Shown here one piece after another: positions 5,188 to 57,634 of a stretch of DNA of 64,000 nt (position 1 is the first letter of the stretch; every line of letters starts with the position of its first letter). The stretch is from Verrucomicrobiaceae bacterium (GTDB lineage: Bacteria > Verrucomicrobiota > Verrucomicrobiia > Verrucomicrobiales > Verrucomicrobiaceae): contig JAEUHM010000025.1 in the NCBI GenBank assembly GCA_016795485.1, positions 124,001 through 188,000 on the forward strand, written 5' to 3'. The translations under genes and the position numbers were made by a program. The notes under the pieces were generated by a model. The model worked only from the letters and a program-made list of their open reading frames with translations. It had not been told where the DNA came from and ran no database searches.

Positions 5188-8100
5188 CTATGGACCAACG
5201 GGCTGAAGGGTCACAGCGCCTGCTTTCTGAACTACTGGGGAAGTTGGCAGATCCTGAAGGATGAAGTAGCCGACTCCCAGGCCATCTTTCGATGGTGCGG
5301 CGACCGAACCGCTCACGGTGCTAGTGTTTGGTACCACAAGACCGGAGAACGTGAGCGAGCGTGTGGCTCCCCCATCAACAATGCTCGCGGTGCCTGAAAA
5401 CTGGCCCGTGGTTGAGTTGAAGCTGGTGATTTTGAGTTTACCAGGATTCGGATTCACCGGCAGTGAGGCGTTAAACGCAGGAATCGTCACCTTGGCCGTC
5501 GATGCTATGGTGAATGGCAAGTTCAGCTCTGTAGCCCGGGCGGAACCAAGGTTGCCGTATTCAGGATTGCCTACTGTCGGTTCGCCATAGTCGAACACCA
5601 TCTCAGCATTACCTGGTGTGCCTGGCAGTTCCATAACGATCTCACCCACGGGGACTGCAGGCAGTTTGCGAGCAAGGGGTGCGCGATAGAGGCCGCCATT
5701 TACAGTCAACTGGATTGGATTGGTCCACCCATTGTGGTAAAGCTTGCCAACAGTGCCACCGACTGGCGGTGCTGGCTTGCTCCAGGAGAGATCGGCCCAT
5801 TCAATGCCAGCCCCCAAGGTGTCGGGTGCATCCGTGACGATGTGATCGATGTCCTCAGCAACCGAGGCAATACCATGAACAGTACCCTGCTGCTTAGAGC
5901 TGTAGATCGCTTTATAGATCAGGACCTGCCCTTCAGGCCCAAGGGGAGCTGAGCTGGAAGCTGCCGTCCCATCCCCCATTCTAAGAGAAGCACCGGCAAC
6001 ACCAGGGCGGGTCACTTTGATGATTCCCGTTGTGATGCCTTGTGGGATGCCGAGATCTCCTTCGTTTCCAGAGTTGGCAAAGGTGGCTTGCACGTTGTGG
6101 CTACCATAGCGAGAGAGGGCCTCTTTGACGGCACCCTTCTTGGTGCTCCAGATGTTTCGCCAGCCATCGACTCCGGTGGTAAGTGTCCCATCGGTGAGCG
6201 TTCCTTTGAAGTAATGGCCATCAGCAGAGGTGGACAAGAAGTCTGCCTGCAGCGTCAATGGAGCGAGAGGGGCTTTGCGCTTGAAAAGGATCGTCACAGA
6301 CGGTGGGTTTGTGCCGTTGTTGATCTTCCCTTTGCCACTGGTTGCAGTTGTGCCATCGGTCAGTTTGGCGGTGTAATCTCCCGTGGACTTGATGGTAAGA
6401 TCGATCCTGGCTCCCCGTGGCAGCATCGTCGTTTGGCGGTCAGCCAGAGCCACCAAGGTGCCTTGGGCGTTACCTGCGATTGGCGCGATGACCATACTGA
6501 ATGCCTTCGAGGCTTGGGAACCCTTCGCATTTGTGGCAGTGATCCTGATGTTGCTATAGGTCTTCGCCGTGGTTGGGGTTCCACTGATGACACCTGCGTT
6601 GTCGATAGCTAGTCCAGCAGGGAGCCCTGTAGCACTAAACTTGGTGGGCTTTCGGAAGTCACCGCTCTTCACTGCCACAGTAAAGCTATATGGTGCCGAA
6701 ACCTTTCCTCCTGGCGGAATAGGAGCGAGGTCGTCCGCCTGCGATCCAGTCGTAGTCACAAACTCAGGCTTGGTGTCGAGGCGAGCCACACGATGGATCG
6801 GACCAAATGTGGAGCCTTCGGCCACCTGAAGCGCACCGGTACCCGTAAACAGAGCGGGAATCGATACGCGGCAACGATAGTTACCAACTTCACCCGTTGT
6901 GAAGCCTTTGATGACAAGAGCACTTTTAGTGGTGCCGGAATACTTTGGCCCATCAGAAATTGGGCTGCCATCTTTGAACCACTTATACCGGAAGATCGAC
7001 GAACTACTGCCATATGCCTTCATCACAAAGGTTGTAGTGCCGTTATCCGCCAAGAACACTTCCGTTCCTGTCATATCAACGCATGCAGCTTCCGTAGCAG
7101 GAAATCTCCTGAGACTCCCAGTCGCGTCAGCATCATTATTGATTTGGAAGACGTATTTGCTGACGCTCGTCGTTGTGAGTGGAGGTGTTGAATACGATGT
7201 AGCGACTTCATTGTCGACGGTCTCGTCGTGGACCACCGCTGCATCAACAAACTTGGTTCCTTTGAACCATTTGTGGCTGAGTTTTGCACTCGAGAACGGA
7301 CCGGCGGCGCGAGTGGTAAAGCTGGCTGCACTCCCTATTGGTACGATCTGATGCTGGGGATATTGGATCATTCCGATATACTCGTCACTCACCACGCCTC
7401 CAGTGGCGCTTACTTCGACAACGATCAAAAGTCCATGGCTTGCGAACATGGAAACATCCCATCGGAAACTGGATGGAAGAGCGGGGAGGTTGACTCCTGC
7501 CACCGTGGTACCACCAGGAACGAACTGAGGTTCACTTGGCTGACTTCCACCGTAAGACTCGAACTGGAATAGTCTGAATACATCGCCGCCGATTGGGTTA
7601 TATCCATCCAGCTCCACAATTGTCACAGCTCCAGACTGCACTGTCAGTGTGCCAGAACCACGCAATTGATCATGGTGATTGCTGTACACTGGATCTGACA
7701 AATCTTTGGCGAATGTGGCCTCACCAGATAGGGGGGTGCCGATGGCCAAGTCCCGCCGGGCCTTGTAAAAAGGAGCTCCTGCAACATTCCCACTGGCATC
7801 AAGGAACATCCTCGAAATCGATGGAACGTTTATAGCGGCACACCGGATCTGCATTCTTGCGACCGAGGATGCACCCAAAGTTGTATTACCGTTAACATAA
7901 AGTGTGCCCACTGCTCTACCAGCAACATCACCGGGCGAGACCTCTCCATTAATGACGGCAGCTCCTTGTATTACACCCGTTCCGGCAACAATGGAGTCTG
8001 CTCCAGACGAAAAAGATGCCGTAGCCCGGTCACGAGGTGAACCCGTGTCTCCAATACCACCTACACCAATTTGAAGAACGCCCTCGACCAACGTAGTACT

Positions 8101-11100
8101 GCCCGTGTAGTCATTATCCAAGGACAAAGTCGCCCACCCTTCACCAGACTTAACAATGTTTAACGCCGCTGCGGCAGCACCCTGGCCAAGCGAGAAATAA
8201 TGGCTGGGTAGTGTTCCATCTCTGAACATAGCATCCCATTTGACCTCAGTCTGAACCGGCGTGGTCTGGTGAATGGTAAGCGTGCCGACAGTGGAGGCAG
8301 CATTTTCAACAATCTCGGAAGACGTTGCTAGAGCACTACCAACGATTGTTCCGACATTCGTGGCGAGAGGACCATCGCCACCTCTAGTCTGGAGACCTCC
8401 AATAGTGATACTGTTCCCACCAATCTGAAACACAGAGTTAAAGTTCATCACGACCTCGTTCAAGCTGGAGAAGGCGTTGGGATTATCAGCACGGGCAACG
8501 GTAGTCTGATCATGGTTATAGTTTGGATTGTCACTGGTAGTATCCGTCTCCCGGTAAATGTTATCACTAATGACCAAGTCTCCGCTCCATCCCAAATTGT
8601 CGCCCGCGAAACGGTGATAGGTTGTGAATCGACCATTCGACGAGTCATTGGGATTGGGTGCTCCCTCCCGAGTCTGGAGGATTAAGTTGCCGCTGGTGAG
8701 CACACTATCAGAGAATCCTCCAGCATACGTGATATGCACAATCTCACCACCAACGGGTGTTCCGTTGTTGTTGTCGATGTAAGACAAAACCAAGTTGTCG
8801 CCCACAACAATTGGGCCATTAAACCGGAAGTCCATCCCATTGACGGGCTGAAACTGGGCACCAATCCGCTTGGTTTGAGCGGGGTTGTAAGTGATATCGA
8901 TCGGCATGTTGACTTCCCAAACGGATCCAGCGGTCCCCAAGTCAGACTGGATGAACAACTCCGCCTCACCAGCATGCTCATTACTTCCCAGCGTAATGCG
9001 CTTGTTGAAGAGATGGCCAGTGCCGAGAGCATCCGCTTGATTCATGGCATTTACTCGCCCCTGCCGGACAACAAGTCCTCCCGTCCAGTCGGGGATGTTT
9101 TCCCGGAACTCAAGGATGCCCATTCCTTCCTTAATGATATCGCCACTTCCTTCGACATAGCCACCACCCGTGTTGAGTCGGAATGTCTGATTGAGTGTGG
9201 TGTCGATCACTAAGTTGCCATTGATACGCATCGGTCCGTTCCAGTTAACAGTCAGGCGTGGCCCACTCGGCGTGCCCACGGTGAGCGCGTTGTGGCCTTC
9301 GAAAGTGATGAACTCCTCAAAGTTCCATTCGCCACCTCCATTTGCGTTGCCCATCTGAATCATCAGATTGGCACCAGAACGAACGATCGTTCCATCCGCC
9401 CAAGAAATGTTGGAGCCAAACATCGTGGAAGTACCTGCTCCGGCAGATGGGGAATCACCAGCCATGCGAACTGTTCCCTGTCGAATATCAAGCAACCCAC
9501 GGAAGTTGGCTTGCTGAGCATCGTCACCCTCAAAAATCAACTGGCCAGGGCCGGTCTTTATCAGGTCACCGCGATATTGATCCACGCTGAAAACAGAGCG
9601 TTGAATAAACAGGTGACCGTTTGACTCAGCCACGTCGATTACCCCACCGTTGCCACCCAAAGTGAGGCCCCTGGTAGGAGCCAGTTGGCCATTCAAGCCC
9701 GTCCACCTCAACGTGCCACCATTGATGGTGACTTGATCGTTTGTTCCCACGGCAGAGGCAATACCAAGAGCACTCTCATGCGAAATGCTCAGCACTCCTC
9801 CGTTAATGTAGGTCTTACCGCCGAAGTTGTTGATTGGGTTGGTCAGCGTCACGACCCCAGTTGTGCCTTGCTCATTGGGCCCAGTCGTCGATGGGCCACT
9901 GATCGTCAGAGCCATCGGCGACACAGCCCTAATGCTTACATTTGAAGCTGTCACGGTGGCATTATTGCTCATGGTGAACTGCTGACTGCTATCCACCGTT
10001 ACAATCGTAGCGGCGGCAGGAATCCCGGGGCCAATCAAAATCAAACCTTCCTGCAAACCCAAGGTGCTCGCCACACGGACGCGGGGCGAGCCCGCCACAG
10101 TCTCTCCTGCAAGCAGCGATGCAGGTAGAGCGGTCTGCGTTCCAACCACATAGGTTTGATTGGTGCCGTTTCCAGTAACTGGAGGCGAGATATTGAGGTC
10201 TGTGCCATTGACTACAAGAGTGATGACCGTTCCGCTAGCCAAGTTGGGTCCCGCAATCGTCATGCCAGGCAGCAGCCCTTTGGTACTATGAACCACAAGG
10301 CGATTCTGTTGCGCCAACGAGTTGTTGGTAACACCACCTGTGAGTAACGAAGGCATGTTTCCGGGGTGTTGCGCATATCCGACAAGCCCAGAGCCATTGT
10401 CCGAGGATGTCCCCGGTGTGAAGGTGAAACTGCCTGCTCCAATCGTGGCCACCGTAGCATTTGCGGGCACGTTAGGAAGCCTAACAGCCATGCCGATTCT
10501 GAGGCCCGCTGTCAGTGGAAGAGTAACGGTTGAAGTTCCCAACGTCGTAGAAGCACCCGCAAGTGGCACCACACCCGTAACACCAAAAAACGTCTGGGAG
10601 GCTGAAGTTCCGAGAGCAGCAAGACTGATATTGAAGTCTGTGACGTTGCTGCTGTCAGCATCCCTTGCGATGGAGGTTACAATTGCATCAGCCGGTATTT
10701 GGGTCCCAATGATGCCCATGCCAACTTTCATCGCGGCAGTGTTGGACACTTTTGCAAGTGTCTGGTCAAGCGATGTAGAGCCGCCCGTGAAAGTAACTAC
10801 TGGCGTATTGAGCGGATCGTTAGGCGTGGTTACATATACAGCAGATCCATTCACAGCGGAGGTAACGTCGTTGGAGAGCTCCAGGCTAGTAGCGCTCTTA
10901 ACTTGCACAATGGAAGTACCCAAAGGAATCCCTGGGCCAGCGACAACCATGCCCGGAACCACATGACTGGTGAATGCGACATCAATGTGTTTTGGCTGGC
11001 CACCATCTTTCGTCACACCTGCGAGTGTTGCCGGACCGGTCCGAATCGGCACCAACTCCACCGTTTGGTTTGAGAGGGTCTCAGTAGCTGGCAGACTCAT

Positions 11101-14100
11101 CGTTGCGGTGGTTGGACCAGTCACCTGAACGACGACCGCCCCGGCAGGTATCCCAGCGCCTACTAGGCCCTGACCAGGAAGCAATCCGATTGTCGTAGAC
11201 ATCGAAAGCGTGATACTCCCATCCGTCATCCCTACTCCAGTGAGCAAGGAGTTACCGTCCCCAAGACCAGAGTCGATGACCAAGTTACCCTGCCCATACT
11301 GATGGATGATCAGTTCCCTGGTTCCAAATACAATGCCTTGAGCTGCCAGTGCCGTTGTGACCGTGGCATTCGTTGAGATTCTCACCGTGGTTCCGTCCAT
11401 GACTGCATCGACAAATGCCCCGATGGGGATGCCCGTTCCCGAGACGGGCATGCCCACATAGATCCCAGCAGTTGAATCAAGGTTGGTGATCAAATTTGAA
11501 GATGCCGTTACTCGTCCACCGAGAATCTTCGAGCTATTCAAGCGCCCACCCGTGATCGTCTTGTTGGCGTTTGCCGTGTTAGTCGACACCATGATCCCTG
11601 ATTGAGCGACTTGGAGGGTCTGGCCGTTCCCCACGTTGAAGATACTGCTTGCAGGAGCATCAAAGCGAATCGTGTTCACAATCAAACTGCTAGGCAGCGT
11701 TCCGCGGAAACCTGATCCCCCAGCACTTGTAAGGGTGTTCTCCGACACATCCTCCCCGGTCAGCCAAGTCGACACATCGTTCTTGTATTCGTCCAGTGCA
11801 CGATTAAAGGTCCGCACTCGATTGCTAGCCGCACTATCAATCATTGCGAAATCCACTGCGGTCCTCGGGGCGTTGCCAGAAACCGCCCAGGGCATCACGT
11901 GATTCTTAGGATCGGCATGCGCTATTCCTCCGTTGAAGTTGATCCGGATTTCACCGACACCCGCACCTCCAGTGCTGTTGTATGCTGCGAATGCACCAGT
12001 CGCCCCTTCTGCTCGGGTTAGTGCGGTACTGTCTCCACCATTACCCATAGTGAGGAGCATACCGTGGACACCACGAGCCTCCGCTACCATGCTTGTGTTA
12101 CCAGATTGGAAAGCGATGGTGCGGGTACCCGTATTCGTCGAAAGTGAAAGTGTACGATCCGTGACCGTCGTCACGGCAGGATCGAATCCACGAGCGACGA
12201 ATGTGCCACCGTTTGCAGTGAAGTTTCCAGAGTTACCCAATCTGGCCAGCGCTATGGTCCTGTCACTGTTGGAGTGGTCGATGACTAACCGCCCACCCGC
12301 GATGTCTACGTTGTGAGTGTCACTGCCTGGAGCCAAAGTCGAGTCATTGATCGTCGTGCTGTTGTTGATCACCACCGTGCCAAGTCCAACCTTCTGCACT
12401 GTGCCTCCGTTGAATCTGTAATCAAACTCAACGGTGCCACCACTCGTTGCATAAAGGCGTGTCGTTCTACCCAAAGTCAGGGTACCACGACCAGTTCCAT
12501 ACTTCACACTACCAGTGTCATTCAATCCACCAAGTAGAGCAGTCCCTCCGTTACCCGATACAGTCCAGGTGCCCATGTTGAACTGCTGACCACTCCTAGT
12601 CATGAAGACAGCTTGGTTCCCTGCACCGATGTTCAATCCGCCCATGCTGAATCCATGCATTGATGTTCCGCCATTTCCGCTATTCACCACCGTGCCGGAT
12701 GCATTCGTGATAAAGTTTACAGAGTTCGAGTTGCCGAACAGCGGCACGTCTCCTGCGGCTGTGCCAGTAGGTGCTAGGGCAATCCTAGAAATTGCATCTT
12801 TTGTCCAGAACCCAGTACCGTCGTTGCCAACAGCAGTAGGGTCGTAGTTAATGAGCAACGTTCCCTGATCCAATGCCAGTCTTCCCGCCGCGTTATACTG
12901 GCTGTCTAGGGTAAGATTCATGTCTTGGTTCGATGCCATGTGAAGCCGGAACACCTGATTCTCGTTGATGCTCGTATTGGTTACTGTCCGACCACCAACC
13001 ACGGCCTGGCCCACGGGGATGGCATTTCCGTTCAATCCTTTGTCACCCACCTGTCCACGGATTCTTATAAAGCCGTTACCTTCAAACGTAATCAGCCGAG
13101 AGTCGGTGTAGGTAGCGTCCTCGGTGACCAAACTGTTGCCACCGTAAACATCACCGATGATCTGAAGTGACTGATTTCCGGCTACACTGATCCGAGGCCG
13201 TGCTGCTGGGTTCGCATGGCGGACGGAATCAACATTGTCGTAAATGATGTCTCCGTAGAGGTAGTTATTGCCATTGTCTGATCGAAGAATCTGCTGCCCG
13301 TCATTGACCAAGATGCCCACTTCAAGGTTCTCGGGCGCCACAGCAGAGCCCACAATAACCCCGTTCGTCATTCGGAAATCACCCAACCCTTGGACCATGA
13401 TACCGTTATTGCTACCACCAACGCCCAACCCATTTCGGCCAGAACGAACGTACAAAATACCTTCATTCACATAGGTCTTCCCGGAATAGGTGCTCTGAGC
13501 ATCTAACACAACACTCGGTGCACCTACTTTTGTCAGGCCACCACTTCCTGCTATGCGAGATTGAATCTCAAAGTTGTTGGAACCATAAACTCCGTCTGTC
13601 ATCCGCAGCCAATAGTTTTGATTGCTTATGATCGCCTCCCGCGTGCCGAAGTCGAGCGTACCACCTCGGATCAGGGTCGTCAGGTTCATGCTAGGACCCA
13701 CGCCGAATGCCGCTGATGCGAGCATCCCAGAAGCTATCGACAGAGTGGCAGTATCATCCAAATAGAGGGTTGAGACCCAGTTGCCGTTGTAGCTGGTAAG
13801 GTTCGTCCGATCATTAATCGCCGCATTGGTCGTGAGGTTGTGATTGCTCACTGGCCCAAACCTCAGCGAGTTAACACTCGTACTTGTTCGGGTATATTGT
13901 ACTGGGTCAACCAGACTGACGTTGAACCCATTGGCATTAGAGCTCTCCACCAATCCAGAGGTCGGAACGAAATACTCCGAATCATCCAACGGGCGAATGT
14001 AGCCAGCTACACTGTCATAAGTCATAAAATGACTGCCAGTAGCATTCTGAAGATTCCGCCCTTGCGCATAAAGATCAGACGACAGACGCGTATCCTTGTA

Positions 14101-17100: not shown

Positions 17101-20100
17101 GCCGCTTTGGAAGTCGGCGTTATCCTGCCCGCGCGTTCTCACTCCTTGAACGCCAACGTTGCTCGTTCCACCCAGCGTCAGCGCCACTCCGTTTGGCAGC
17201 TTCGTCGTATTGCTGCTGGTGTAGTCAAGCTGAAGCACCCCTCCACCAGCAGTGAACGCGCCACTGTAGCCGCTGTTGTCACCCGCGAGCACCAACACAC
17301 CATTCCCAACATGCGTGATGCTTCCAGAGCCAGTCAGGTTACCTGAAAGTCTCAATGAGGTCGTAATCCCAGGTGTAGCGGGATTGTTTATTACCGCCCA
17401 GCGAGCACCTGCATTGTTAGCTACATTTCCGCTCCAGACGTTCGTGCCTGAAGATGCACCCCAGCCGAAAGCATTTCCATTGGCACCACCACTCAAAGTA
17501 AGTTGCTCGCCTGTTACTGTGACGCCCCGAAGGTCCAAGAACGAACGTATGTCGTCAGATGCCTGAGTGACCACTACGCCTCCTGCAGAGCTACCCAAGG
17601 CGCTGTTATGACTGATGGACAAAGTGCCCCTCTCGATAGTCACCGCTCCGGTGAACAAGTTGTTCCCACTAAGCAGCCAGTTTGATGCCTCTAGTTTCCG
17701 GATGGAGGTCGCTCCGCCAGGACCGTCGGCAATGGCGGGGGCCATCTCATTGAAGTGAGTCACGTATGAAAACTGGCCTGTGCCGAGATTCAGGGTTGCA
17801 GCCACCGTGCCCAAGTTCCCGCCTCGAAGTTGAATCCGCCGCGCACCACTGCCCTCGTAGGCAATCGCTCCCGGATTGGTAAAACGGATCGTGGCGGGGT
17901 TGGAGCCATAGTTTTGGCCACTTGCCCAGAAAGCAGCCGAGGCTTCACCGCTTGAGCCGCTGCCCGCCCCTACAGTAAACAGCCTGTCAGTCGACTGTGA
18001 GTTGAAACCCAAGAACTCGAGTCCACCGCTGCCCGTTTTCGTGCTAATCAATAAGTTTGCAGCAGCGCTAGGTGAGGCACCAATGCTAGAGGCAACACCC
18101 CCATTCGCCAGATAATAGGCTCTGATGCGAGTCGCGCCTACATTGGAACCAACGTCGTTTACGATGGAGGTGGGCCCAGTGTAGGTGTTCTTGTTTGGTA
18201 ATGTCAGGTCGCGGCCTGCATTGGCGTTGGTCGTCAGTTTTACCCCGCCATCACCTTCAATAATGCCGGCATAGGTTGAACTTGCCGATTGCATTGTGAG
18301 AGTGCTTCCACCAGGTCCCAAAGTTACCTTTGAACCCAAGTTGCCAGCAAGAGCTCCAATCGTATCGCTCACACCATAGATGAGCTGGCTAAAGTAGCCT
18401 CCAACCTTCGTTGCCTCAGAGGTATTGAGGGTCACCGTCCCAGTATCAGCAAGCCCCCCCGTGCCATTGATCTCCAGAATACCTGCTGAGATCGTCGTTC
18501 CCAGACCAAGCGTCAGCGGCCCAGTAAATCTCCAGTGGCTGTCCCCGCTCTTGTTGAGGCCCATCTGAGCCCCTGTGACTGCCCCGCTAACGATATTGAC
18601 ACCACTCGTGCTGCTACCCCCAAAAGTAAGCGTCCTCCCGGATTGGTAAGTACCATTGTCAATCGCCGCCTGACTTATATCCTGAGTAATTGAGCCCGCG
18701 ATAGTTAATGTAGCGTCAAGATCATTGTTGATGATTCCTGAGTTTCCTCCTGTTGAGATAACACTTGTGGTGATTGGCAAAACATTGTTCCCAGCAACTC
18801 CACTGTCGAATCTGACGAGGCTACCACCAGATAAGTAGATGTCCCGTGCAACTGCCAGATTGCCCAAGGCACTGAACTGGGAAATTTCCAGAGTGCCGCC
18901 GCTCAACTGCACGTCCCCAGCATAAGAAGGTCGCGACCCAGATAGTCTCCAGTTGCCGCCGCCTGATTTTCTGAGACCAATTTCAGAGTCAATGTAGCTA
19001 ATTATTCCAGAGAAGACGTTGACGTCACGGCTCTCTCCTCCCAGCGCGAACCATCTTGAACCACCGGCTTCATCAAAAAAGCTTTGAAAAATATCACCTG
19101 TCCAGGTGAGGGTTCCAAAGCCATTCGCGGCAAGTGTGGATGCTGGAGTTAAGTACGGACTTAGCAGTAAATCATCAGACGTGACTGTGATAATGGTGCG
19201 ATCCGTCGAGACATTGTCCTTGCCCACATAGTCAAGAGTGCCGGTGGAAACATCCGTTCCAAAAAATACGGACGTGCCCGCACCCAGTGAACTGCTGCTC
19301 CCAGAGTCTGCGAGATGCGTCACCCGAACGACTGCTCCGTTCATGATCACCGAAGCTCCGCTGTAGCTACTGTCGCCAACGTATACCTCTGTCGTTCCCC
19401 CATCAAAGGTCAAATCCCCACCTCCAGAAACTGTAGCGTTATTGATGCCACCACTGGTTAACAGCTGACCAGTACCATCCAAACTGATGCTGCTACCAGA
19501 AACAGCTGCTAACGTAGGCAACGATTGCCGACCAACTACAGCCAATTCACTCCCTGCATTCAAAAAGAGCCTCGTTGAAAGCATTTGGTTCGACACGCTT
19601 GTTGCCAGCGTGCCTCGCTGAACCATCGCGTTGCCGCTCCACGTGCTAACTGGGCGGTAATTTGTGTCTGGCGTATTGATGTCATCATCGAAATCAAAAT
19701 ACTCTAGTTCATTGCTTAGCTTAACAGTGCCTGGTGAGTTGAATATCCAGGTACCGCCTCCGGTGAGCGCACCAAATATTTCATATTCATGACCGGCGGA
19801 GTTTGCTCTGAACTCGACATACGAGTTATTGGCAATCGCTAGAGGACCAGGACCTGAATTGTCACCCACCCAAGAGTTGGTGCTCGAGTCAATTGTTGCA
19901 TTGTCGAAAATAAGTCGGCCAGACTGCGATGTAATCAGTGCCCGCTCAGGACCAGAAATGTACGGATTCGTATTCGGGTTCTCAGGGAGGGACTCGTTGT
20001 TCAGAAATTTCCCATCGCCAAGCATATTGGCGCCAAGTGCTCCAGAAGTGACCGTGCCTGATATTCGCAAGTCGCCCATCCCCTCCTTGATGAGCTCTGC

Positions 20101-23100
20101 ATTTCGCCCTGTTCTTCCGTTGGCACTGTCGCGGACGGGGTTCAGAGTTATGTCCCCACTGATTGTAAGTGTGTTGTAGAGATGGGTTCGGACGAAGGTC
20201 CTTTCGTCTTCGGCAGCGGTTACGATCAAATTGCTGGAGCCAATGGAGCCAGAAAATGAATCTGCACCGATATGCAAAGTCGCCCGAACAGATGGGGACT
20301 CCCCAGAAAGTGCTCCCACCCTCGTGGTGCCAGAGTATGTGTTGTTCCCAAGTAACCAATATTGCCTGTTCGACGACGGGGGAGCTTGGATGAGGAGGCC
20401 GCCAACGCCCAAAATATCATTGGCAAAAACGTTGTGAAAAGCCGTAGTAGCTAAGACGAGAGTGGAATTACTTGATGTCATGTCCACCTTGCTTGAGCTA
20501 GGAACAAAACTTCCATTTGCCAGAACCAGTTTACCCCCTTGCAGTTGGAAACTTCCCAGACTCGTCAAGTCCCTGAGCTCGATGGACGAGTTCGCGCCAC
20601 CTTTAAACACCGTTGAAATGGGGTTTGGCAGCAGGACCGTAGGGATAGGTGGGAAAAAGGGATCAAATACGGGGGCGTCGAAAACCAACGATGATGTGGC
20701 TTGAATAAGGGTTCCCCCTCCAAAGATAGTCAAAGGGTAGGTCATTGAGCCAGTGTCGACTTCGAGTGAACCACCTTTCAGTGCAACGGGTTCTGCTAGG
20801 CCGCCTAGGGAAACAAGCAGTGCTCCAGCCTCAACAGAAGTTCCTCCAAGGGGAGAACCCAAACTGCTCACGGTTTGAGCAACTAAAGTTCCAGCCTGCA
20901 CACTTGTTCGTCCAGTGTACTCGCTGCCTGAAGTAGCTAGGGTAATTGTTCCTTCTCCGATTGATCTCACGGCACCGGTCCCTTTGATGGGACCAGAAAC
21001 GTCGTAAAATCCATCGCGGTAGAAAGTCAGGATTCCGGTATTCACTATGTCAAGCACGGCTGAGGGAGACCGCAGCGCTCCGGTGAATCCACCATTGCCA
21101 ATTTGAACCTCACCGCCGCCAATCACAAACGCTCCTGACTGTTCGTTATCGGAAGTGATCACCAATGTTCCGGGACCCGTTTTAGCGAAACTTGATGGCG
21201 TTACAGAAGCATCCTGTGCCCGCAGATTTAAGAACATCGGGGCATCCTCGTTGAACTGATGAATGAATATCTCGTCGACCGAACTCTGAAATCTTGGGGG
21301 ATTGCCAACATTTGCGGGGCTCGTTGTACCTGTAAGCGTTAGGGACTGCGTGCTACTATCTCGCGTAATGAGGATGCCCCCAGTAGAAATGGTGAACAAT
21401 CCATCAACAGTGAGGGTCTTATTCGCACTTGCACCTGCAAAGTTGAGCGTCCCAACCGTGGGGTTTAAGATTACACTGGAACTAAGGAGCGTAGCATCCA
21501 CATGTTTATCTGACCCAAGGGTGCCAACATATGTCCCAGTGTATTCAGCAATGGTCTGAGTCCCGCCTCCTAATGCTACAGCAGCCCACTTAGACCCATC
21601 ATGAACAGCATAGCCCCCTAAAATACCAGTGGTTGGGCTGTTAGAAAGAGATGTCTGAACAGCACCAAATCCAGCAATGAGTGCTGCTCCCAAGCTCCTT
21701 GTAGGACTCCCAATATCAACGGCACCTCCTACTAGTAGGTTTCTCCGAATCGCATTTGCGCCAGCTCCGAGCGTCACAGTTCCAAGGTTTTCGAGCCTGT
21801 CGCCGCCCACACGAATCACGCCACCATTGAGGAGAAAACCGCCAACATCAGGAATAACACTGCTAACATCTGCAAGTGATCCAAGTCCATTCGCAATGAC
21901 TAGCTCAGTACCCAGTCCGATGGTTGTGCCTCCGCTATAGCTATTTGCACCAGAAACGACTAGTCCCCCTCCCAACAGGACAAGACTTCCGGTTCCAACA
22001 ATTGAACCGGTGAATGCCCCGTGCTGATATCCCCCGCCCTGGGTAAGAGTTAACGATCTACCAGGGGCGGCAAGAGTTCCTAGATTCACAGTGCCAGAAC
22101 CACTGATGGAGCCAATCGTTTCACCAATCGAATTGTCCACTCCGAAAGATAACACTCCTCCGGTTCCAACTGTCAATCTAGTGAAATCAGCAAATGCAGA
22201 GAGTCCCTTGTTCAGTACTAAGGACGCATTCTCTAGATCAACCGCAGGCCCATTTATTTCCGAGTTGCTGTCAGGAATCGTCGTTGCCCCCCCAACGATA
22301 CGAAGCCTTCCAACGTGTTGAAGGCCATCACCAGTGCCGGACCTACCGCCCCCGGAAACAACTGCCGAAGCGAATGATCCATTTGAGTTGAGCAAAGTAA
22401 ATGAACCTCCGCCTAGCTCAACCGTAGCAGACGAAACGCCAGACAGGCTCTGAATCTCGGAATCAAATCCATTCAATGCAAGCCGCCCTGACGCCCCCAA
22501 AGTGATAGAGGAAAGCGGTGCCAAGTTACCTCTTCTCGCATTGGACACAAGGCTTCCGACACCCTCTGCACGACTCAGATAACCCAGTTCGACCGCCCCT
22601 GCGTTTACACTGAGCACTCCCGATGCAGTGTTGGAACCTACTATCTGAAAAGTTCTACTGCCAAGCTTGGTGATCGAGCCGTCTCCCGTAATCGCACCTG
22701 CAAAGGAGTAGTCACTCGAACTTCCCCTGATTACTATACCAGAATTGGCACCCAACAGCTTAAGTTCACCACCCTGCTCACCCAAATAGTTTCCCATCAG
22801 TGCTCCAGGAATACCGGTCCGTGTAGCTGAACGAACGCCGGCACCACCCGCCAGCAAATCTACGATTTCACTGATACTAGTCTCAAACACCGCCAGTGAC
22901 TTGTTGCTTACGTTGATAGAACTCGCACGCGTGCCGTCAAAAGCCAACCCCTCACCAGTAGAGACTGCAAAGGTTCCATTTTCTACCCGGGCGACTCCCT
23001 GAAATCCAGATGACCGATCAGCCTGATATTCAAACCGACCAGTACCCTCTTTGATAACCCATGCTCGGAAATCCACATCCTTTCCATCAATGATACCATG

Positions 23101-26100
23101 AAATACCGAACTGCGGTTATCGCCGCCCATCACCAGTGTACCAACGTTCGCACTCTCCACTTGGGTGGCCAAGTTAACCAAATGGGAGTTCTCCATAAGG
23201 TTAACCACAGAGGAGTTGCCGTTTCCTCCGGACAGGCTGCCGATGCGCTCGAAAGTGTAGAGGTTTGACCCACTAGAAGCGAAATTGATTACTTGGTTGC
23301 CGGTAGATCCCAGCACCAGTTGAGAGTTATCAGAGAATACATTCTGATTCACAAAACGGCCACCTGACTCAAATCCGCCTAGTACAACCTCGCCGCCGTT
23401 GATCACTGTGTCACCGGTGTGCGCTTGATTGCCAAGAAAGATCAATACTCCATTGCCATTTTTGGTAAGTCCGCTTGCCCCATTTGTGTTGCTCTTGAGG
23501 ACGGATGTCGGAATGAACGTGGTGCCGCCAGATCCGTCGATCAGGCCCCTGCTGAACAAAAGTTTATCGCTACCCGAAACCTGGGTGACCCAAGACGATC
23601 CTGTAACAACATCAGAGTTGATGACTTTCATCCCAACTGAGAATGGAAGAGCAGCATTTGGGGTAGAACCCAGCCACACCGGACTGCCAGCTGTGCCACT
23701 ACCTTCCCCTTCACTGCCTGTTCCTTGGACGTTCGACATCGTAAGTCGTCCATCAAGGCTAATCACACTTCCTTCCGCACCTCTCAAATCACCGATTGTT
23801 TCTCCCAAACCACTGACGCTCAAAACTGAGCCAGCTTGCTTCAAGTTCACCGCAACCGTATCACTCAGCGCGTTACCCGCAGCATTTGCTAACGCAAGCG
23901 TACCGCCGTTGATCACTAACGTCCCAGTGAAGGTACTTGCACCAGACAGTGTCGTTGTGCCAAGTCCGTTCTTAGTGACCACGCTGTTTGACGAACCGGA
24001 GATCACTCCAGAAAGAACATTCGTGCCCCCAAGCCCCCCAAACGCTATGGAACCGTCTCCCAGCGTGATATTCCCAGCCCCTTCCAGCAAGCCAACCGCC
24101 TCAGAGCGATCGTTCATCACCAGTTCTGTTCCAGAAGCAAGAACTACGCGCCCAGCGTCCGGCAGCATGTCTGGACGGACAAACAAAGGTGTGTCTACAC
24201 CGAGCAATATGCGCCCGGAATTGACATTAAGCGTGCCAGTAAAGCCATTACCCCCTCCAATGGTGAGGTCGCCGGCACCATTTTTAGTGTAGGAGCCAGC
24301 GCCTGTCATCGCACCCTCAAATGTTGCATTCGAGGCGGTTCCGAACGTAAGCGCCATGCCGGTGGCAACAGACACTTGCGAACCAAAAATGCCCGTCAGG
24401 TCGCCAATCGTTTCGTTTTGATTTATCGCGAGAATAGCGCCCGGAGCGCTCAGATTTACGGGAGCAGTGTTTCCTATGACACCGCCGACTCGGTTCACCG
24501 TAACAGTGCCACCTGAGATATTGAGCGAAGTGAATCCATTGACCGCTCCCGCAAACACCAAGTTTCCGCTCGAAACGTTCACTGCTGATAAATTAGTGGT
24601 CGAGCCCGAAGCAAACGTATGGGTTGCCGTGCTGTTGTAGTTGAACGAGCCATTGAAGGTGTTCGTAGCAGCGGCTCCTGGTGCGAACACGCCAGTACCA
24701 TTGATGGTGAATGGTCCAGAAAACGTATTGTTGCCTGCCATGGTGAGTTTTGCACCATCGCCAATAGTCACTGTAGTTAGCTGGGTATTGTTGCCAGGGG
24801 CGATAAGTTCACCACCAGTCACCTGGACAGCACCATTGAACTCTCCCAACCCAAGCGCAGTGAGGGTGAATATTCCCGTTCCCTTCTTGATGAGCGTGCC
24901 TGTGCCTTTGATCTTATTGCTAAAGGTGGTGTTTGTATTGAGACCACCCGTTGTCAATGTTCCGCCAGCGATAGATACCCAACCGGCCTCACCAGAAGAT
25001 GCACCTGTCGCGAGGGAGCCGATTTCCACATTGCGTGTATTCACATCCAACTTGGCAGATGCATCCGTTCCCATGGAGAAAGCGGAGAAAGGCGGCAAGA
25101 CGTTGTCCGCCCCAGCAATGAGCACACCACGTTCAATCGTTGTTGTGCCCGTGTAATCGTTGGTTCCAATCAGCGTCAACTGCTGTGTCCCCACGTCCAT
25201 CTTGAGATTTCCTGTCCCAGAGATGCCTGAAACGGTAATGGCGTTATTTCTGCGAAAGAGCAGCTCACCAAAGTTCTGAATAGGGCCGCTTCCCAAGCTG
25301 CCGATCGCGCTTCCTACTCCCACCGCACCAGCCCCCACTTGAAGTGTGCCACCGGCGATCACCGTTCCGCCTGTATAGGTGTTGTTCGACGCCAACACCA
25401 GGGTCCCCGCACGAGTTTTCACCAATCCGACTACTGGGCTCAGTGACACCAAAGACAAAGCCGAGTTGTCGACGATCGTGGAGTTAACCGTCATGGTATT
25501 CTGATCAATGTGGAAGAATAGCTCGTTGATACTGGCTCCAGCCCGCAAGGCACTGTTGGTGACGGCCACACTCGATCCGGCGGTAAGAAACGCTGTTCCC
25601 GAGACGGGCTGGATGGCGCGAGCAAAATTGCCCACAGCCATAATGCCGCCGCTCGCCACTGTGAAGGTCGTGCCTGCGGTTTGAGTCATTGTTTGGGCCG
25701 CAGTGGAGAACCGCAAACTGTTCACTGTAGCGTTGCCAGTGTTTCCTGAAAGTGCCGCTGTAATGTTGATGTTGTCAGACGGATTGGTCCAGGTATTGGC
25801 GGCATTGTTTGCTGCTGGTAGTACCAGGGTCGTAATGTTCCCGGCATTGCTGATGGCCCAGTTCGTTGTCGTTCCGCTGGAAGCAGTCGCCCATCCTCCA
25901 AGGATGCCGTTGGTATTGACTGTCGATGTAGTCACGATGTCAACGGTAGGAAAATCAACCACCCCACCACCAGCCAATGTGCGGCTGAGTGCGCCAGCCA
26001 GCAGCTTGCCAGACGAACCTGTCCGGGTGACTTGAGAGAAACCAGCAGCCACTTCAAGACCATTAATGATCTCGTCGTGAGACCCCGTTGCGGGCATCGT

Positions 26101-27057
26101 CAAGTTGAGCACTGCTCGGCTCAATGAGAGCTTCGAAGTGTCTGACAGCTTGCTCGTATTCTGTCCTGCACCTGTGTAAGTCAGACGTAGCGTGCCGCCC
26201 GTGACAGAGGTAGCGCCGCCGAAGGTATTGTTTGCCACCAACGTTGTGAGCGCTGTAGACCGATTTACGATGTTCAAGTTAGTTGTGGCACCGCTAATGA
26301 TTCCGTTGAAGTTGATCGCTCCCGAACTGGTCGAGTTCACGTTAATGTTCCCGGCGCTCACCCCACTGTTAAAGGTTGTTGCACCGGTGTTCATTGCGTT
26401 TACAACAATCGTGCCTGCGGTCACGGTTTCTGAAGTGCCGGATGCACCAATAGTGGTTGCACCGGTACTCCCATTGTTCAAAATCAACTGGCCCCCGGTC
26501 AAATTGATTGACCCGTTCAGGTTTGCAACACCGTTGCCAGCGGTCTGAACTGTTAGCGGCACGGCACCTGTGATGTTCGGATTGACCGTGAGTGTTCTGC
26601 TGGGGCCCACCAGCCAAGACTGCGACGAAGCCAGTTGGATTGCCAGAGTTTGACTATTACTCTTGTTGATCGTCAAGTTAGCCCCGGCAGCCGACAGGTC
26701 GATCCCCGCCGCACCAAGCGTTAGTGTTTGGTTGGAGGCGCCACTCGCATTCGGATTGATGGTTACTGCCCCAGTAGCCGATGGGAGCATTTTGATTCCT
26801 CCGATGGACAGTGTCGAGTTGGCTGTGGTGTTTGAGTTAAAGGTGAGCGCACTGTCCACAAGGCCACTGATGAGCACCGTGTCATCGATGGTTGGAGTCG
26901 CCTTCTCGGCGAAACTAAAAATGCTGTTGAGCCCGTCTCCCCGCCGAATGAGGTAAAAGTCAGCCGCAGTCAGATACACTTGCGAACTCATGAGACACGC
27001 CAAAGAAATGGCGGCTACAGATCGCTTCATGCGGGCGAATGGTTTGAGCGTTGTCAT
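5188..27057 (-). CDS. giant autotransporter-associated beta-strand (PATR) repeat surface protein
   Basis: About 7,289 residues in one uninterrupted frame. The start at 27057 (MTTLKPFARMKRS) gives a signal peptide ending near YLTAAD; the frame is open to 27150, and 27030 is an alternative. Most of the chain consists of PATR units of the form TLxLxGxNxYTGxTxVxxGTLxV, for example near 25380 (NTYTGGTVIAGGTLQV) and 23900 (STFTGTLVINGGTLAL), predicted to build a beta-helix. Four larger modules containing an HQ/HxDQ motif recur, and seven tandem GMxVxGxGIP units occupy about 9930-11520. A closing GTLYVNGNTTL domain is followed by two Ig-like segments (about residues 6560-6750), a putative-Ig segment (LPAGLAIDNAGVISGTPTT, about 6790) and a beta-rich end (GVGYFILQDLP). 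I saw no terminal autotransporter barrel, PEP-CTERM or LPXTG signal, so the anchoring route is unknown. Almost no cysteine occurs before about residue 6,400. Probable role: adhesion, sheath or surface layer (inference). Confidence 0.92.
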   Translation of the reverse strand: MTTLKPFARMKRSVAAISLACLMSSQVYLTAADFYLIRRGDGLNSIFSFAEKATPTIDDTVLISGLVDSALTFNSNTTANSTLSIGGIKMLPSATGAVTINPNASGASNQTLTLGAAGIDLSAAGANLTINKSNSQTLAIQLASSQSWLVGPSRTLTVNPNITGAVPLTVQTAGNGVANLNGSINLTGGQLILNNGSTGATTIGASGTSETVTAGTIVVNAMNTGATTFNSGVSAGNINVNSTSSGAINFNGIISGATTNLNIVNRSTALTTLVANNTFGGATSVTGGTLRLTYTGAGQNTSKLSDTSKLSLSRAVLNLTMPATGSHDEIINGLEVAAGFSQVTRTGSSGKLLAGALSRTLAGGGVVDFPTVDIVTTSTVNTNGILGGWATASSGTTTNWAISNAGNITTLVLPAANNAANTWTNPSDNINITAALSGNTGNATVNSLRFSTAAQTMTQTAGTTFTVASGGIMAVGNFARAIQPVSGTAFLTAGSSVAVTNSALRAGASINELFFHIDQNTMTVNSTIVDNSALSLVSLSPVVGLVKTRAGTLVLASNNTYTGGTVIAGGTLQVGAGAVGVGSAIGSLGSGPIQNFGELLFRRNNAITVSGISGTGNLKMDVGTQQLTLIGTNDYTGTTTIERGVLIAGADNVLPPFSAFSMGTDASAKLDVNTRNVEIGSLATGASSGEAGWVSIAGGTLTTGGLNTNTTFSNKIKGTGTLIKKGTGIFTLTALGLGEFNGAVQVTGGELIAPGNNTQLTTVTIGDGAKLTMAGNNTFSGPFTINGTGVFAPGAAATNTFNGSFNYNSTATHTFASGSTTNLSAVNVSSGNLVFAGAVNGFTSLNISGGTVTVNRVGGVIGNTAPVNLSAPGAILAINQNETIGDLTGIFGSQVSVATGMALTFGTASNATFEGAMTGAGSYTKNGAGDLTIGGGNGFTGTLNVNSGRILLGVDTPLFVRPDMLPDAGRVVLASGTELVMNDRSEAVGLLEGAGNITLGDGSIAFGGLGGTNVLSGVISGSSNSVVTKNGLGTTTLSGASTFTGTLVINGGTLALANAAGNALSDTVAVNLKQAGSVLSVSGLGETIGDLRGAEGSVISLDGRLTMSNVQGTGSEGEGSGTAGSPVWLGSTPNAALPFSVGMKVINSDVVTGSSWVTQVSGSDKLLFSRGLIDGSGGTTFIPTSVLKSNTNGASGLTKNGNGVLIFLGNQAHTGDTVINGGEVVLGGFESGGRFVNQNVFSDNSQLVLGSTGNQVINFASSGSNLYTFERIGSLSGGNGNSSVVNLMENSHLVNLATQVESANVGTLVMGGDNRSSVFHGIIDGKDVDFRAWVIKEGTGRFEYQADRSSGFQGVARVENGTFAVSTGEGLAFDGTRASSINVSNKSLAVFETSISEIVDLLAGGAGVRSATRTGIPGALMGNYLGEQGGELKLLGANSGIVIRGSSSDYSFAGAITGDGSITKLGSRTFQIVGSNTASGVLSVNAGAVELGYLSRAEGVGSLVSNARRGNLAPLSSITLGASGRLALNGFDSEIQSLSGVSSATVELGGGSFTLLNSNGSFASAVVSGGGRSGTGDGLQHVGRLRIVGGATTIPDSNSEINGPAVDLENASLVLNKGLSAFADFTRLTVGTGGVLSFGVDNSIGETIGSISGSGTVNLGTLAAPGRSLTLTQGGGYQHGAFTGSIVGTGSLVLLGGGLVVSGANSYSGGTTIGLGTELVIANGLGSLADVSSVIPDVGGFLLNGGVIRVGGDRLENLGTVTLGAGANAIRRNLLVGGAVDIGSPTRSLGAALIAGFGAVQTSLSNSPTTGILGGYAVHDGSKWAAVALGGGTQTIAEYTGTYVGTLGSDKHVDATLLSSSVILNPTVGTLNFAGASANKTLTVDGLFTISTGGILITRDSSTQSLTLTGTTSPANVGNPPRFQSSVDEIFIHQFNEDAPMFLNLRAQDASVTPSSFAKTGPGTLVITSDNEQSGAFVIGGGEVQIGNGGFTGALRSPSAVLDIVNTGILTFYRDGFYDVSGPIKGTGAVRSIGEGTITLATSGSEYTGRTSVQAGTLVAQTVSSLGSPLGGTSVEAGALLVSLGGLAEPVALKGGSLEVDTGSMTYPLTIFGGGTLIQATSSLVFDAPVFDPFFPPIPTVLLPNPISTVFKGGANSSIELRDLTSLGSFQLQGGKLVLANGSFVPSSSKVDMTSSNSTLVLATTAFHNVFANDILGVGGLLIQAPPSSNRQYWLLGNNTYSGTTRVGALSGESPSVRATLHIGADSFSGSIGSSNLIVTAAEDERTFVRTHLYNTLTISGDITLNPVRDSANGRTGRNAELIKEGMGDLRISGTVTSGALGANMLGDGKFLNNESLPENPNTNPYISGPERALITSQSGRLIFDNATIDSSTNSWVGDNSGPGPLAIANNSYVEFRANSAGHEYEIFGALTGGGTWIFNSPGTVKLSNELEYFDFDDDINTPDTNYRPVSTWSGNAMVQRGTLATSVSNQMLSTRLFLNAGSELAVVGRQSLPTLAAVSGSSISLDGTGQLLTSGGINNATVSGGGDLTFDGGTTEVYVGDSSYSGASVIMNGAVVRVTHLADSGSSSSLGAGTSVFFGTDVSTGTLDYVGKDNVSTDRTIITVTSDDLLLSPYLTPASTLAANGFGTLTWTGDIFQSFFDEAGGSRWFALGGESRDVNVFSGIISYIDSEIGLRKSGGGNWRLSGSRPSYAGDVQLSGGTLEISQFSALGNLAVARDIYLSGGSLVRFDSGVAGNNVLPITTSVISTGGNSGIINNDLDATLTIAGSITQDISQAAIDNGTYQSGRTLTFGGSSTSGVNIVSGAVTGAQMGLNKSGDSHWRFTGPLTLGLGTTISAGILEINGTGGLADTGTVTLNTSEATKVGGYFSQLIYGVSDTIGALAGNLGSKVTLGPGGSTLTMQSASSTYAGIIEGDGGVKLTTNANAGRDLTLPNKNTYTGPTSIVNDVGSNVGATRIRAYYLANGGVASSIGASPSAAANLLISTKTGSGGLEFLGFNSQSTDRLFTVGAGSGSSGEASAAFWASGQNYGSNPATIRFTNPGAIAYEGSGARRIQLRGGNLGTVAATLNLGTGQFSYVTHFNEMAPAIADGPGGATSIRKLEASNWLLSGNNLFTGAVTIERGTLSISHNSALGSSAGGVVVTQASDDIRSFLDLRGVTVTGEQLTLSGGANGNAFGWGASSGTNVWSGNVANNAGARWAVINNPATPGITTSLRLSGNLTGSGSITHVGNGVLVLAGDNSGYSGAFTAGGGVLQLDYTSSNTTKLPNGVALTLGGTSNVGVQGVRTRGQDNADFQSGTIIRLTGGSHTEVVNGLTLNRGASYVERTSGTSTLQVSAITRGQNNGATLDVMSGSVTTTTLNRNGIVGGYLTVGKTDWGVTVDTTPASPASPHVPILPFSGYVASAGAVSGATSHWDVQGDGTLAGGAIVGSLRFNTGAPITVTMSGAVTIDSGGILVTAGVGSSDVQISGGSITAAGTAPAIRDIVVHQFNTARPFTIGSLITGSNVSLTKSGAGELVLLEVNDYTSGTYVNEGTLRLGNNFDGLGTNAKLGTGGLTVNGKLIVDLGLGADYAMPALNGGDGVIELAETNQRTISFSGDNGGFQGVINVYGGTLKGFGNASNSNALGNGRTLINVGPLGGLDITNTTGTITSMGSDIHLQGRLLSSGTTGVATGQISGSLFILDSGAEINIGNPSVTNGATFPQLNLNGAVFSTVGLRKTGKGTLSLGAAQFADAIVGTIGRNLAPSLSGEILVEEGRLFLSGGGRAAGATGIDNRIIVSDGATVDLRDADLNYGDDPDTERKVIEIVGAGMGGNGSLLNTSGTGTAVKVLVAGDATIGTGGLLNGSALEFAPYDTTVETGATLEGVTDFVAPSLEKSGFAPAIVTKVGTGDLVFRDTLFDSFSGLNISEGRVRFERSTLPPAGQPSGLAVSDFQTINLEFGAPSKLDVNNANSTTGPIFGPRLEFFRQNGMRHEVPIFLNGSVSESKGAANYLQLNANSTGIPGPATTIGGQIEVSGSAFSNIFDIESGVGGGSLGATIQGNMVSEVQGKLMIAGEIVGAGGFSKVGSRELRFTSSAVHTGHTYLTRQGTINVPSRSDAVTVNGITYQNQGEAESWAEFGTTLMGPQGALLSTTEIRLERNALLTLDNTDRLGATSGVSGANNNNRINDAAIIKLLNGTLRVMGGDVANTESIASSGAGSLIVQGGSNFIDLWNTDGADVNLTLTIGKLSRSAGSVLRFRAFDSTASFSTASVGDSVRVKLNTAPDLASGIEQVGGASGMSKSVITGLLGGTAPHAIYKDTRLSSDLYAQGRNLQNATGSHFMTYDSVAGYIRPLDDSEYFVPTSGLVESSNANGFNVSLVDPVQYTRTSTSVNSLRFGPVSNHNLTTNAAINDRTNLTSYNGNWVSTLYLDDTATLSIASGMLASAAFGVGPSMNLTTLIRGGTLDFGTREAIISNQNYWLRMTDGVYGSNNFEIQSRIAGSGGLTKVGAPSVVLDAQSTYSGKTYVNEGILYVRSGRNGLGVGGSNNGIMVQGLGDFRMTNGVIVGSAVAPENLEVGILVNDGQQILRSDNGNNYLYGDIIYDNVDSVRHANPAARPRISVAGNQSLQIIGDVYGGNSLVTEDATYTDSRLITFEGNGFIRIRGQVGDKGLNGNAIPVGQAVVGGRTVTNTSINENQVFRLHMASNQDMNLTLDSQYNAAGRLALDQGTLLINYDPTAVGNDGTGFWTKDAISRIALAPTGTAAGDVPLFGNSNSVNFITNASGTVVNSGNGGTSMHGFSMGGLNIGAGNQAVFMTRSGQQFNMGTWTVSGNGGTALLGGLNDTGSVKYGTGRGTLTLGRTTRLYATSGGTVEFDYRFNGGTVQKVGLGTVVINNSTTINDSTLAPGSDTHNVDIAGGRLVIDHSNSDRTIALARLGNSGNFTANGGTFVARGFDPAVTTVTDRTLSLSTNTGTRTIAFQSGNTSMVAEARGVHGMLLTMGNGGDSTALTRAEGATGAFAAYNSTGGAGVGEIRINFNGGIAHADPKNHVMPWAVSGNAPRTAVDFAMIDSAASNRVRTFNRALDEYKNDVSTWLTGEDVSENTLTSAGGSGFRGTLPSSLIVNTIRFDAPASSIFNVGNGQTLQVAQSGIMVSTNTANANKTITGGRLNSSKILGGRVTASSNLITNLDSTAGIYVGMPVSGTGIPIGAFVDAVMDGTTVRISTNATVTTALAAQGIVFGTRELIIHQYGQGNLVIDSGLGDGNSLLTGVGMTDGSITLSMSTTIGLLPGQGLVGAGIPAGAVVVQVTGPTTATMSLPATETLSNQTVELVPIRTGPATLAGVTKDGGQPKHIDVAFTSHVVPGMVVAGPGIPLGTSIVQVKSATSLELSNDVTSAVNGSAVYVTTPNDPLNTPVVTFTGGSTSLDQTLAKVSNTAAMKVGMGIIGTQIPADAIVTSIARDADSSNVTDFNISLAALGTSASQTFFGVTGVVPLAGASTTLGTSTVTLPLTAGLRIGMAVRLPNVPANATVATIGAGSFTFTPGTSSDNGSGLVGYAQHPGNMPSLLTGGVTNNSLAQQNRLVVHSTKGLLPGMTIAGPNLASGTVITLVVNGTDLNISPPVTGNGTNQTYVVGTQTALPASLLAGETVAGSPRVRVASTLGLQEGLILIGPGIPAAATIVTVDSSQQFTMSNNATVTASNVSIRAVSPMALTISGPSTTGPNEQGTTGVVTLTNPINNFGGKTYINGGVLSISHESALGIASAVGTNDQVTINGGTLRWTGLNGQLAPTRGLTLGGNGGVIDVAESNGHLFIQRSVFSVDQYRGDLIKTGPGQLIFEGDDAQQANFRGLLDIRQGTVRMAGDSPSAGAGTSTMFGSNISWADGTIVRSGANLMIQMGNANGGGEWNFEEFITFEGHNALTVGTPSGPRLTVNWNGPMRINGNLVIDTTLNQTFRLNTGGGYVEGSGDIIKEGMGILEFRENIPDWTGGLVVRQGRVNAMNQADALGTGHLFNKRITLGSNEHAGEAELFIQSDLGTAGSVWEVNMPIDITYNPAQTKRIGAQFQPVNGMDFRFNGPIVVGDNLVLSYIDNNNGTPVGGEIVHITYAGGFSDSVLTSGNLILQTREGAPNPNDSSNGRFTTYHRFAGDNLGWSGDLVISDNIYRETDTTSDNPNYNHDQTTVARADNPNAFSSLNEVVMNFNSVFQIGGNSITIGGLQTRGGDGPLATNVGTIVGSALATSSEIVENAASTVGTLTIHQTTPVQTEVKWDAMFRDGTLPSHYFSLGQGAAAAALNIVKSGEGWATLSLDNDYTGSTTLVEGVLQIGVGGIGDTGSPRDRATASFSSGADSIVAGTGVIQGAAVINGEVSPGDVAGRAVGTLYVNGNTTLGASSVARMQIRCAAINVPSISRMFLDASGNVAGAPFYKARRDLAIGTPLSGEATFAKDLSDPVYSNHHDQLRGSGTLTVQSGAVTIVELDGYNPIGGDVFRLFQFESYGGSQPSEPQFVPGGTTVAGVNLPALPSSFRWDVSMFASHGLLIVVEVSATGGVVSDEYIGMIQYPQHQIVPIGSAASFTTRAAGPFSSAKLSHKWFKGTKFVDAAVVHDETVDNEVATSYSTPPLTTTSVSKYVFQINNDADATGSLRRFPATEAACVDMTGTEVFLADNGTTTFVMKAYGSSSSIFRYKWFKDGSPISDGPKYSGTTKSALVIKGFTTGEVGNYRCRVSIPALFTGTGALQVAEGSTFGPIHRVARLDTKPEFVTTTGSQADDLAPIPPGGKVSAPYSFTVAVKSGDFRKPTKFSATGLPAGLAIDNAGVISGTPTTAKTYSNIRITATNAKGSQASKAFSMVIAPIAGNAQGTLVALADRQTTMLPRGARIDLTIKSTGDYTAKLTDGTTATSGKGKINNGTNPPSVTILFKRKAPLAPLTLQADFLSTSADGHYFKGTLTDGTLTTGVDGWRNIWSTKKGAVKEALSRYGSHNVQATFANSGNEGDLGIPQGITTGIIKVTRPGVAGASLRMGDGTAASSSAPLGPEGQVLIYKAIYSSKQQGTVHGIASVAEDIDHIVTDAPDTLGAGIEWADLSWSKPAPPVGGTVGKLYHNGWTNPIQLTVNGGLYRAPLARKLPAVPVGEIVMELPGTPGNAEMVFDYGEPTVGNPEYGNLGSARATELNLPFTIASTAKVTIPAFNASLPVNPNPGKLKITSFNSTTGQFSGTASIVDGGATRSLTFSGLVVPNTSTVSGSVAAPSKDGLGVGYFILQDLPTSPVVQKAGAVTLQPVGP
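9930..11520 (-). repeat. seven tandem GMxVxGxGIPxGxxV repeats inside the giant PATR gene
   Basis: Seven diverged units of about 75 residues follow each other. Their cores read GMPVSGTGIPIG, GQGLVGAGIPAG, GMVVAGPGIPLG, GMGIIGTQIPAD, GMAVRLPNVPAN, GMTIAGPNLASG and GLILIGPGIPAA. Each core is followed by a VxxV...LSxxAT-like strand. They differ from the PATR units before and after them. They interrupt the fourth HQ module: the first unit comes before its IIHQYGQ motif and the other six come after it. Confidence 0.8.
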
Positions 27058-47145: not shown

Positions 47146-47285
47146 GGGGGTTGTGATCTGCAAGGCTAATGGCGGCTCCAGCTTCCCTGAGCCCGGTGGT
47201 GAATCAACTCGCTGAATCTCCTATCGTCAAACACTGTATTCATGTGCTATCCTCGCTCCTCAAACCTGTTTCTTTCGTCAAATCT

Positions 47286-57488: not shown

Positions 57489-57634
57489 AAGATGAAAAAT
57501 TTCGCAGCTTCCATCATGCCACAGTTTTCCACCTTGCGGGAAGATTTTGCGAGACTTTGGATCTGGTTTCACAAAGAACTCAGAAACGCAGTTCACGAGG
57601 AAGGCGACAAAAAGAGAATCAACGATGCAGAATG

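Follow-up and report, generated by a model that had tools for sequence, protein, structure and literature searches.

A recurrent C-terminal domain occupies the PEP-CTERM position on a conserved giant PATR protein of a Verrucomicrobiaceae bacterium

The window (the whole 64,000-nucleotide stretch of DNA from a Verrucomicrobiaceae bacterium analysed here) contains a minus-strand gene for a 7,289-residue PATR protein, whose C-terminal domain, the GYF tail, recurs on many other large proteins of the family and stands on orthologous passengers where tail-less relatives carry a PEP-CTERM tag. We favour the reading, at a probability of roughly 0.6, that the tail is an exchangeable C-terminal export or anchoring module of a conserved giant surface or extracellular protein. 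The features of the gene and its product are as follows (all on the minus strand).

5188..27057, minus strand: giant PATR protein gene, 7,289 aa plus stop (open reading frame and orthologues)
26962..27057, minus strand: signal peptide, aa 1-32, MTTLKPFARMKRSVAAISLACLMSSQVYLTAA (predicted by reading the sequence)
7414..26961, minus strand: PATR / beta-helical passenger, aa 33-6548 (profile matches; co-linear with orthologues)
7414..7467, minus strand: junction motif FRWDVSMFASHGLLIVVE, aa 6531-6548, the last part in common with the PEP-CTERM-ended orthologues
6862..7047, minus strand: Ig-like domain, aa 6671-6732 (Ig_3, E=1.4e-4, below the curated cut-off)
6475..6771, minus strand: He_PIG-like domain, aa 6763-6861 (placed by alignment with paralogues)
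5191..6474, minus strand: GYF tail domain, aa 6862-7289, an uncatalogued C-terminal module
6151..6480, minus strand: tail barrel 1, 8-stranded, predicted, aa 6860-6969 (structure model)
5191..6150, minus strand: tail barrels 2 and 3, predicted, ending GVGYFILQ...GAVTLQPVGP (second model from the relative L082)

The gene occupies a single frame that is open from 27150 to the stop codon at 5188-5190, with its first in-frame ATG at 27057 and an alternative start at ATG 27030; across 5188-27057 each of the other five frames has 171-501 stops and the coding frame has none over 7,289 codons. The gene sequence was taken from a 61-contig assembly, and from the assembly only. The first-pass annotation had described an intact frame of about 7,289 codons that begins with a signal peptide, and both descriptions are borne out: the frame runs from 27057 to 5188, the same coordinates, and the N-terminus reads as a signal peptide when judged by its sequence. 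Its suggestion of strong selection also holds, in that purifying selection is seen on a pair of orthologues. There are orthologues in 17 other tail-bearing genomes of the family, mostly of 6,000-8,900 aa; L172 and L173 are co-linear with the window protein (32% over about 5,150 aa), as are L174, L175 and L180. L172 and L173 are close orthologues of one another, and the dN/dS between them (rather than for the window gene itself) is 0.114 over 6,607 codons, an approximate value because dS is near saturation. Every block of their alignment is constrained, including the last two, which contain the tail (dN 0.30 and 0.16 versus dS 1.89 and 1.15). The co-linear orthologues and this low ratio show that the giant gene is real, conserved and maintained.

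The size of 7,289 aa is by itself unexceptional, as PATR frames of 13,713 and 12,432 aa and a PEP-CTERM frame of 14,657 aa are present in tail-less relatives, and giant genes in general have already been described in the PVC group (PMC5177795, PMC11573180). Most of the ten tail-less relatives searched have more PATR matches than the window genome, with frames of 10,000-14,657 aa. PATR-like and PEP-CTERM proteins have been seen in the Akkermansia proteome, where they were labelled autotransporters (PMC4960237); we infer that those autotransporters are PATR proteins. The giant is flanked by housekeeping genes (RRF, lipoate ligase, MetE-like, SIS and ROK). Elsewhere the window encodes a 2,008-aa bacterial alpha-2-macroglobulin-like protein with bMG3, MG2, A2M and bMG10 domains (47169-53195, plus strand) and a 1,318-aa protein made up largely of DUF5650 repeats (53640-57596, minus strand; PF18888, 602 bits, 11 stretches).

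The PATR repeats previously noted in the giant protein are confirmed by two profiles, both over cut-off: TIGR02601 (E=1.4e-43, 146 bits, cut-off 19.85) matches 15 stretches in the first half of the protein and three in the second, and PF12951 (88 bits in the first half, cut-off 27) matches 16 and three, respectively. An iterated model finds 30 PATR units between aa 192 and 6480. The orthologue alignments skip a segment at window positions 10240-11223 (minus strand, aa ~5279-5606) that contains several repeats of ~60 aa with the pattern GMxVxGxGIPxGTxVxxV; units like these lie near the N-termini of orthologues L174, L175 and L180. Beyond the passenger, the Ig-like and GVGYF-type sequences attributed to the protein's end are both there, the Ig_3 match being a weak one, and PF05345 matches six of 15 paralogues at the He_PIG-like position, with no match to the window copy itself. 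The final residues are GLGVGYFILQ...GAVTLQPVGP. The annotation's statement that this end has neither a PEP-CTERM tag nor a translocating barrel stands: sequence, Pfam and NCBIfam give no PEP motif, TM helix or basic cluster at the C-terminus, and the PF03797 barrel has no match there and none over cut-off anywhere in the genome. A classical autotransporter (T5aSS) was rejected on this missing C-terminal PF03797 translocator barrel.

The last 460 aa of the giant match 13 further proteins of the same genome, and the tail is common to at least 16 other large proteins there, among them PATR giants of 5,187 and 7,650 aa and a PATR protein of 2,917 aa; other PATR proteins of the window genome end in PEP-CTERM. 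It forms a single domain of some 350-430 aa, with Ig-like or He_PIG domains before it in most cases, and from a reading of the paralogues its end has the consensus GxGYFLLPxxP...SPILSGxVxL at the stop. The regions N-terminal to it are unlike one another. Scans of the giant protein and 15 tails found no Pfam or NCBIfam model for the tail, and a search limited to open-licence PMC papers found no description of it. A scan of 84,980 species with a constructed consensus alignment (made for search use only) gave 24 loci with the tail, all titled Verrucomicrobia or taxa within, a result that does not bound the family because the search patterns favour close relatives; the cultured species Brevifollis gellanilyticus (strain NBRC 108608) is one of the carriers. 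A survey of the phylum also finds the tail across several classes and orders. Of 78 non-redundant proteins whose C-terminus is complete, 65 have the tail within 10 aa of that end and 72 within 35 aa. The exceptions include L099 and L102 (593-594 aa), in which the domain comes straight after the signal peptide and is followed by about 150 residues, and L183, in which 453 aa follow it. The C-terminal position is therefore not obligatory, and the idea that it might be was dropped. Two architectural variants were also seen: a propeller-like repeat insert (IYWTT...VDGTGV) splits the tail domain of the 5,187-aa protein (contig C2; L010 / L024) into two matched pieces, and two orthologues of the giant, L248 (G399) and L250 (G393), have two complete tail domains in tandem.

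The clearest indication of what the tail may do comes from the ends of orthologous passengers. With aa 5719-6600 of the window protein as query, the passenger was detected in 23 genomes. In all 18 tail-positive ones, the window genome included, the orthologous passenger ends in the tail (the tail match ends 3-7 aa before the stop in those measured), whereas the seven orthologues of the five tail-negative genomes all have a PEP-CTERM end, as do two more distant ones. The seven stop 19-30 aa beyond the match, just past a WDxSxF...GIL.VV motif. L207, from the tail-less genome G394, illustrates the junction: it is orthologous to the window gene, matching L173 at 45% over 5,321 aa and the window protein at 32% over 4,871 aa and 42% over 918 aa, and the alignment is shared up to WDxSLFNSQGILVVV, after which L207 has VPEPGRMMLLVLGASALLFRRRRTS and a stop where the others have Ig-like domains and the tail. 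A second passenger family has a like junction, with L176 ending in the tail and L200 in PEP-CTERM; their shared sequence stops 26 aa before the end of L200. Because of shared ancestry the 25 orthologues amount to about two independent swap events and not 25; the midpoint-rooted passenger tree requires at least two changes and has the PEP-ended forms basal. Since tail-bearing and tail-less genomes carry the two different ends at the same point, the tail probably has a part in sorting or anchoring comparable to that of PEP-CTERM, as judged from substitution, position and distribution, and since it sits exactly at its relatives' PEP-CTERM position it is probably a second, undescribed way of exporting or anchoring very large surface proteins in these bacteria. 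The first-pass annotation had taken the C-terminus to give no clue to the route, a view that this recurrent module, at the PEP-CTERM position of the tail-less genomes' orthologues, no longer permits.

The tail is present in 29 of 59 genomes of the family, mostly with 14 to at least 34 matches each and in four genomes with one to three; tail-rich (14 to at least 34) and tail-less genomes occur within one GTDB genus. On a UvrB tree of the hosts the tail-less genomes form three clades and three changes of the tail are required, two of which well-supported branches make unavoidable, so the pattern is clade-wise and wholesale rather than one of scattered single losses. The PATR giants of tail-less genomes end in PEP-CTERM (L196, L200, L201, L204, L206, L207 and L210) or in an autotransporter-type barrel (L194, L205 and L211), and a PF03797 search confirmed barrels at the giant ends for G407:C21, G409:C7 and G407:C8. 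Tail-less genomes tend to have more autotransporter barrels (0-11) than tail-positive genomes (0-3, mostly 0), in raw counts that ignore kinship. Thus the swap, the second passenger family, the C-terminal position, the distribution and the PEP-CTERM or barrel ends in tail-less genomes all support the module reading. Against it stand L099, L102 and L183, the small number of swap events (about two), the retention of PEP-CTERM proteins in tail-positive genomes, a PEP-ended paralogue of the passenger (G436b) in one such genome, and the failure of the searches described next to find a partner gene. The annotation had proposed looking for a secretion gene that co-occurs with the tail; neither the PF04575 search nor the neighbours of 47 tail loci yielded such a partner, these neighbours having no secretion gene in common and the recurrent ones reading as DUF1501- and sulfatase-like families. 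Pfam and NCBIfam scans of the giant protein and 15 tails found no Por secretion CTD (T9SS cargo), and SprA (PF14349) matched none of the 59 genomes but gave no match in the control genomes either.

AlphaFold2 models the window tail as all beta (pLDDT 77, pTM 0.81); its model of the last two-thirds of the L082 tail has pLDDT 83 and pTM 0.85. Foldseek finds no match at E<=0.001 for either model. VIA-align places tail residues 1-110 with 8-stranded soluble barrels (fHbp, Z 10.4; HphA, 9.7; the de novo barrel 6czj, 10.4), finds the same barrel fold in the second part (fHbp, Z 7.6) and small barrel domains at Z below 6 in the third. The short strands and these fold matches suggest that the tail is three soluble barrels and not a membrane pore. 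Three such barrels would suit a binding domain equally well, and the main rival to the module reading, which we consider rather unlikely, is that the tail binds a ligand or matrix (exopolysaccharide, for example) and so keeps the protein attached to the surface by adhesion, with export that uses no tail-specific machine. Its predicted fold is in common with the binding proteins fHbp, TbpB and HphA, its N-terminal placement in L099 and L102 would fit such a role, and so would its Ig-like and He_PIG neighbours, domains that are typical of adhesive proteins. Adhesion alone, however, leaves unexplained the replacement of PEP-CTERM at one junction, the copy number of dozens or none, and the C-terminal position in 72 of 78 proteins.

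It is improbable that the tail is a lineage-specific expansion with no part in sorting, in which recombination added an Ig-tail cassette to the ends of large genes and PEP-CTERM was displaced. Several PATR genes do extend past the end of their contig, as expected of repeat-rich genes that recombine, and the tail is duplicated in tandem in G393 and G399, but the tail-containing blocks of L172 and L173 are still constrained and orthologues in 18 genomes have kept the tail. (L045 and L048, at the ends of contigs C35 and C36, are PATR proteins whose last 45 residues, SAPWKVAFAIGAVGFSQD...YTGNL, are the same, marking a segment of PATR gene that is repeated at an assembly break.) It is very improbable that a divergent type XI (Slam) secretion system handles the tail as cargo: the best fold matches of both models include the T11SS cargo barrels fHbp, HphA, hemophilin, TbpB and HpuA, but the fold is generic because de novo barrels and avidin match too, and PF04575 (Slam/DUF560) has no match at E<=0.01 in the window genome, its two matches over cut-off elsewhere being split between a tail-positive and a tail-negative genome, so that a T11SS translocon for the tail in the window genome was rejected.

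If the tail is an export or anchoring module, the protein would consist of a signal peptide, a PATR-type beta-helical passenger of about 6,500 residues, a short Ig-like spacer and the three-barrel tail. Sec would carry the chain to the periplasm, the passenger would fold as a beta-helix, and the folded tail might be read at or beyond the outer membrane by a putative component; such reading would deliver or retain the passenger at the surface, which is the job of PEP-CTERM and exosortase on the orthologous passengers. We suggest only tentatively, at somewhat less than even odds, that the tail is recognised by an undescribed verrucomicrobial system for export or anchoring at the outer membrane, one that can handle proteins of >700 kDa and is separate from exosortase and from the type 5, 9 and 11 systems. 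The swap of a catalogued sorting tag for an uncatalogued domain on the same passenger makes surface export of giants testable, and a profile of the tail would allow annotation of dozens of proteins per genome whose ends are now unnamed.

Among known systems, the PATR autotransporters (PF12951 plus PF03797) resemble the giant in having a signal peptide and a PATR passenger. Giant PATR proteins with autotransporter barrels do occur in tail-less relatives, whereas the window giant is without a PF03797 barrel. The C-terminal domains of T9SS cargo are, like the tail, beta-rich, C-terminal and present on large secreted proteins, but the tail matches nothing in Pfam or NCBIfam. T11SS/Slam cargo barrels (fHbp, HphA, TbpB) have in common with the predicted tail fold a C-terminal, 8-stranded soluble beta-barrel; the tail differs in its three tandem barrels, in having no sequence match to them, and in the absence of a PF04575 translocon from the window genome. 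The PEP-CTERM/exosortase system (TIGR02595, PF07589; Haft 2006, PMC1569441) differs in form, its tag being about 24 aa long (motif, TM helix and basic cluster) and the tail about 350-430 aa of predicted beta-barrels that lack a TM helix and for which no processing enzyme is known. Both, however, are C-terminal sequences on signal-peptide proteins, are present in many copies or none per genome, are appended to proteins that are otherwise unlike, and stand at the same position on orthologous passengers.
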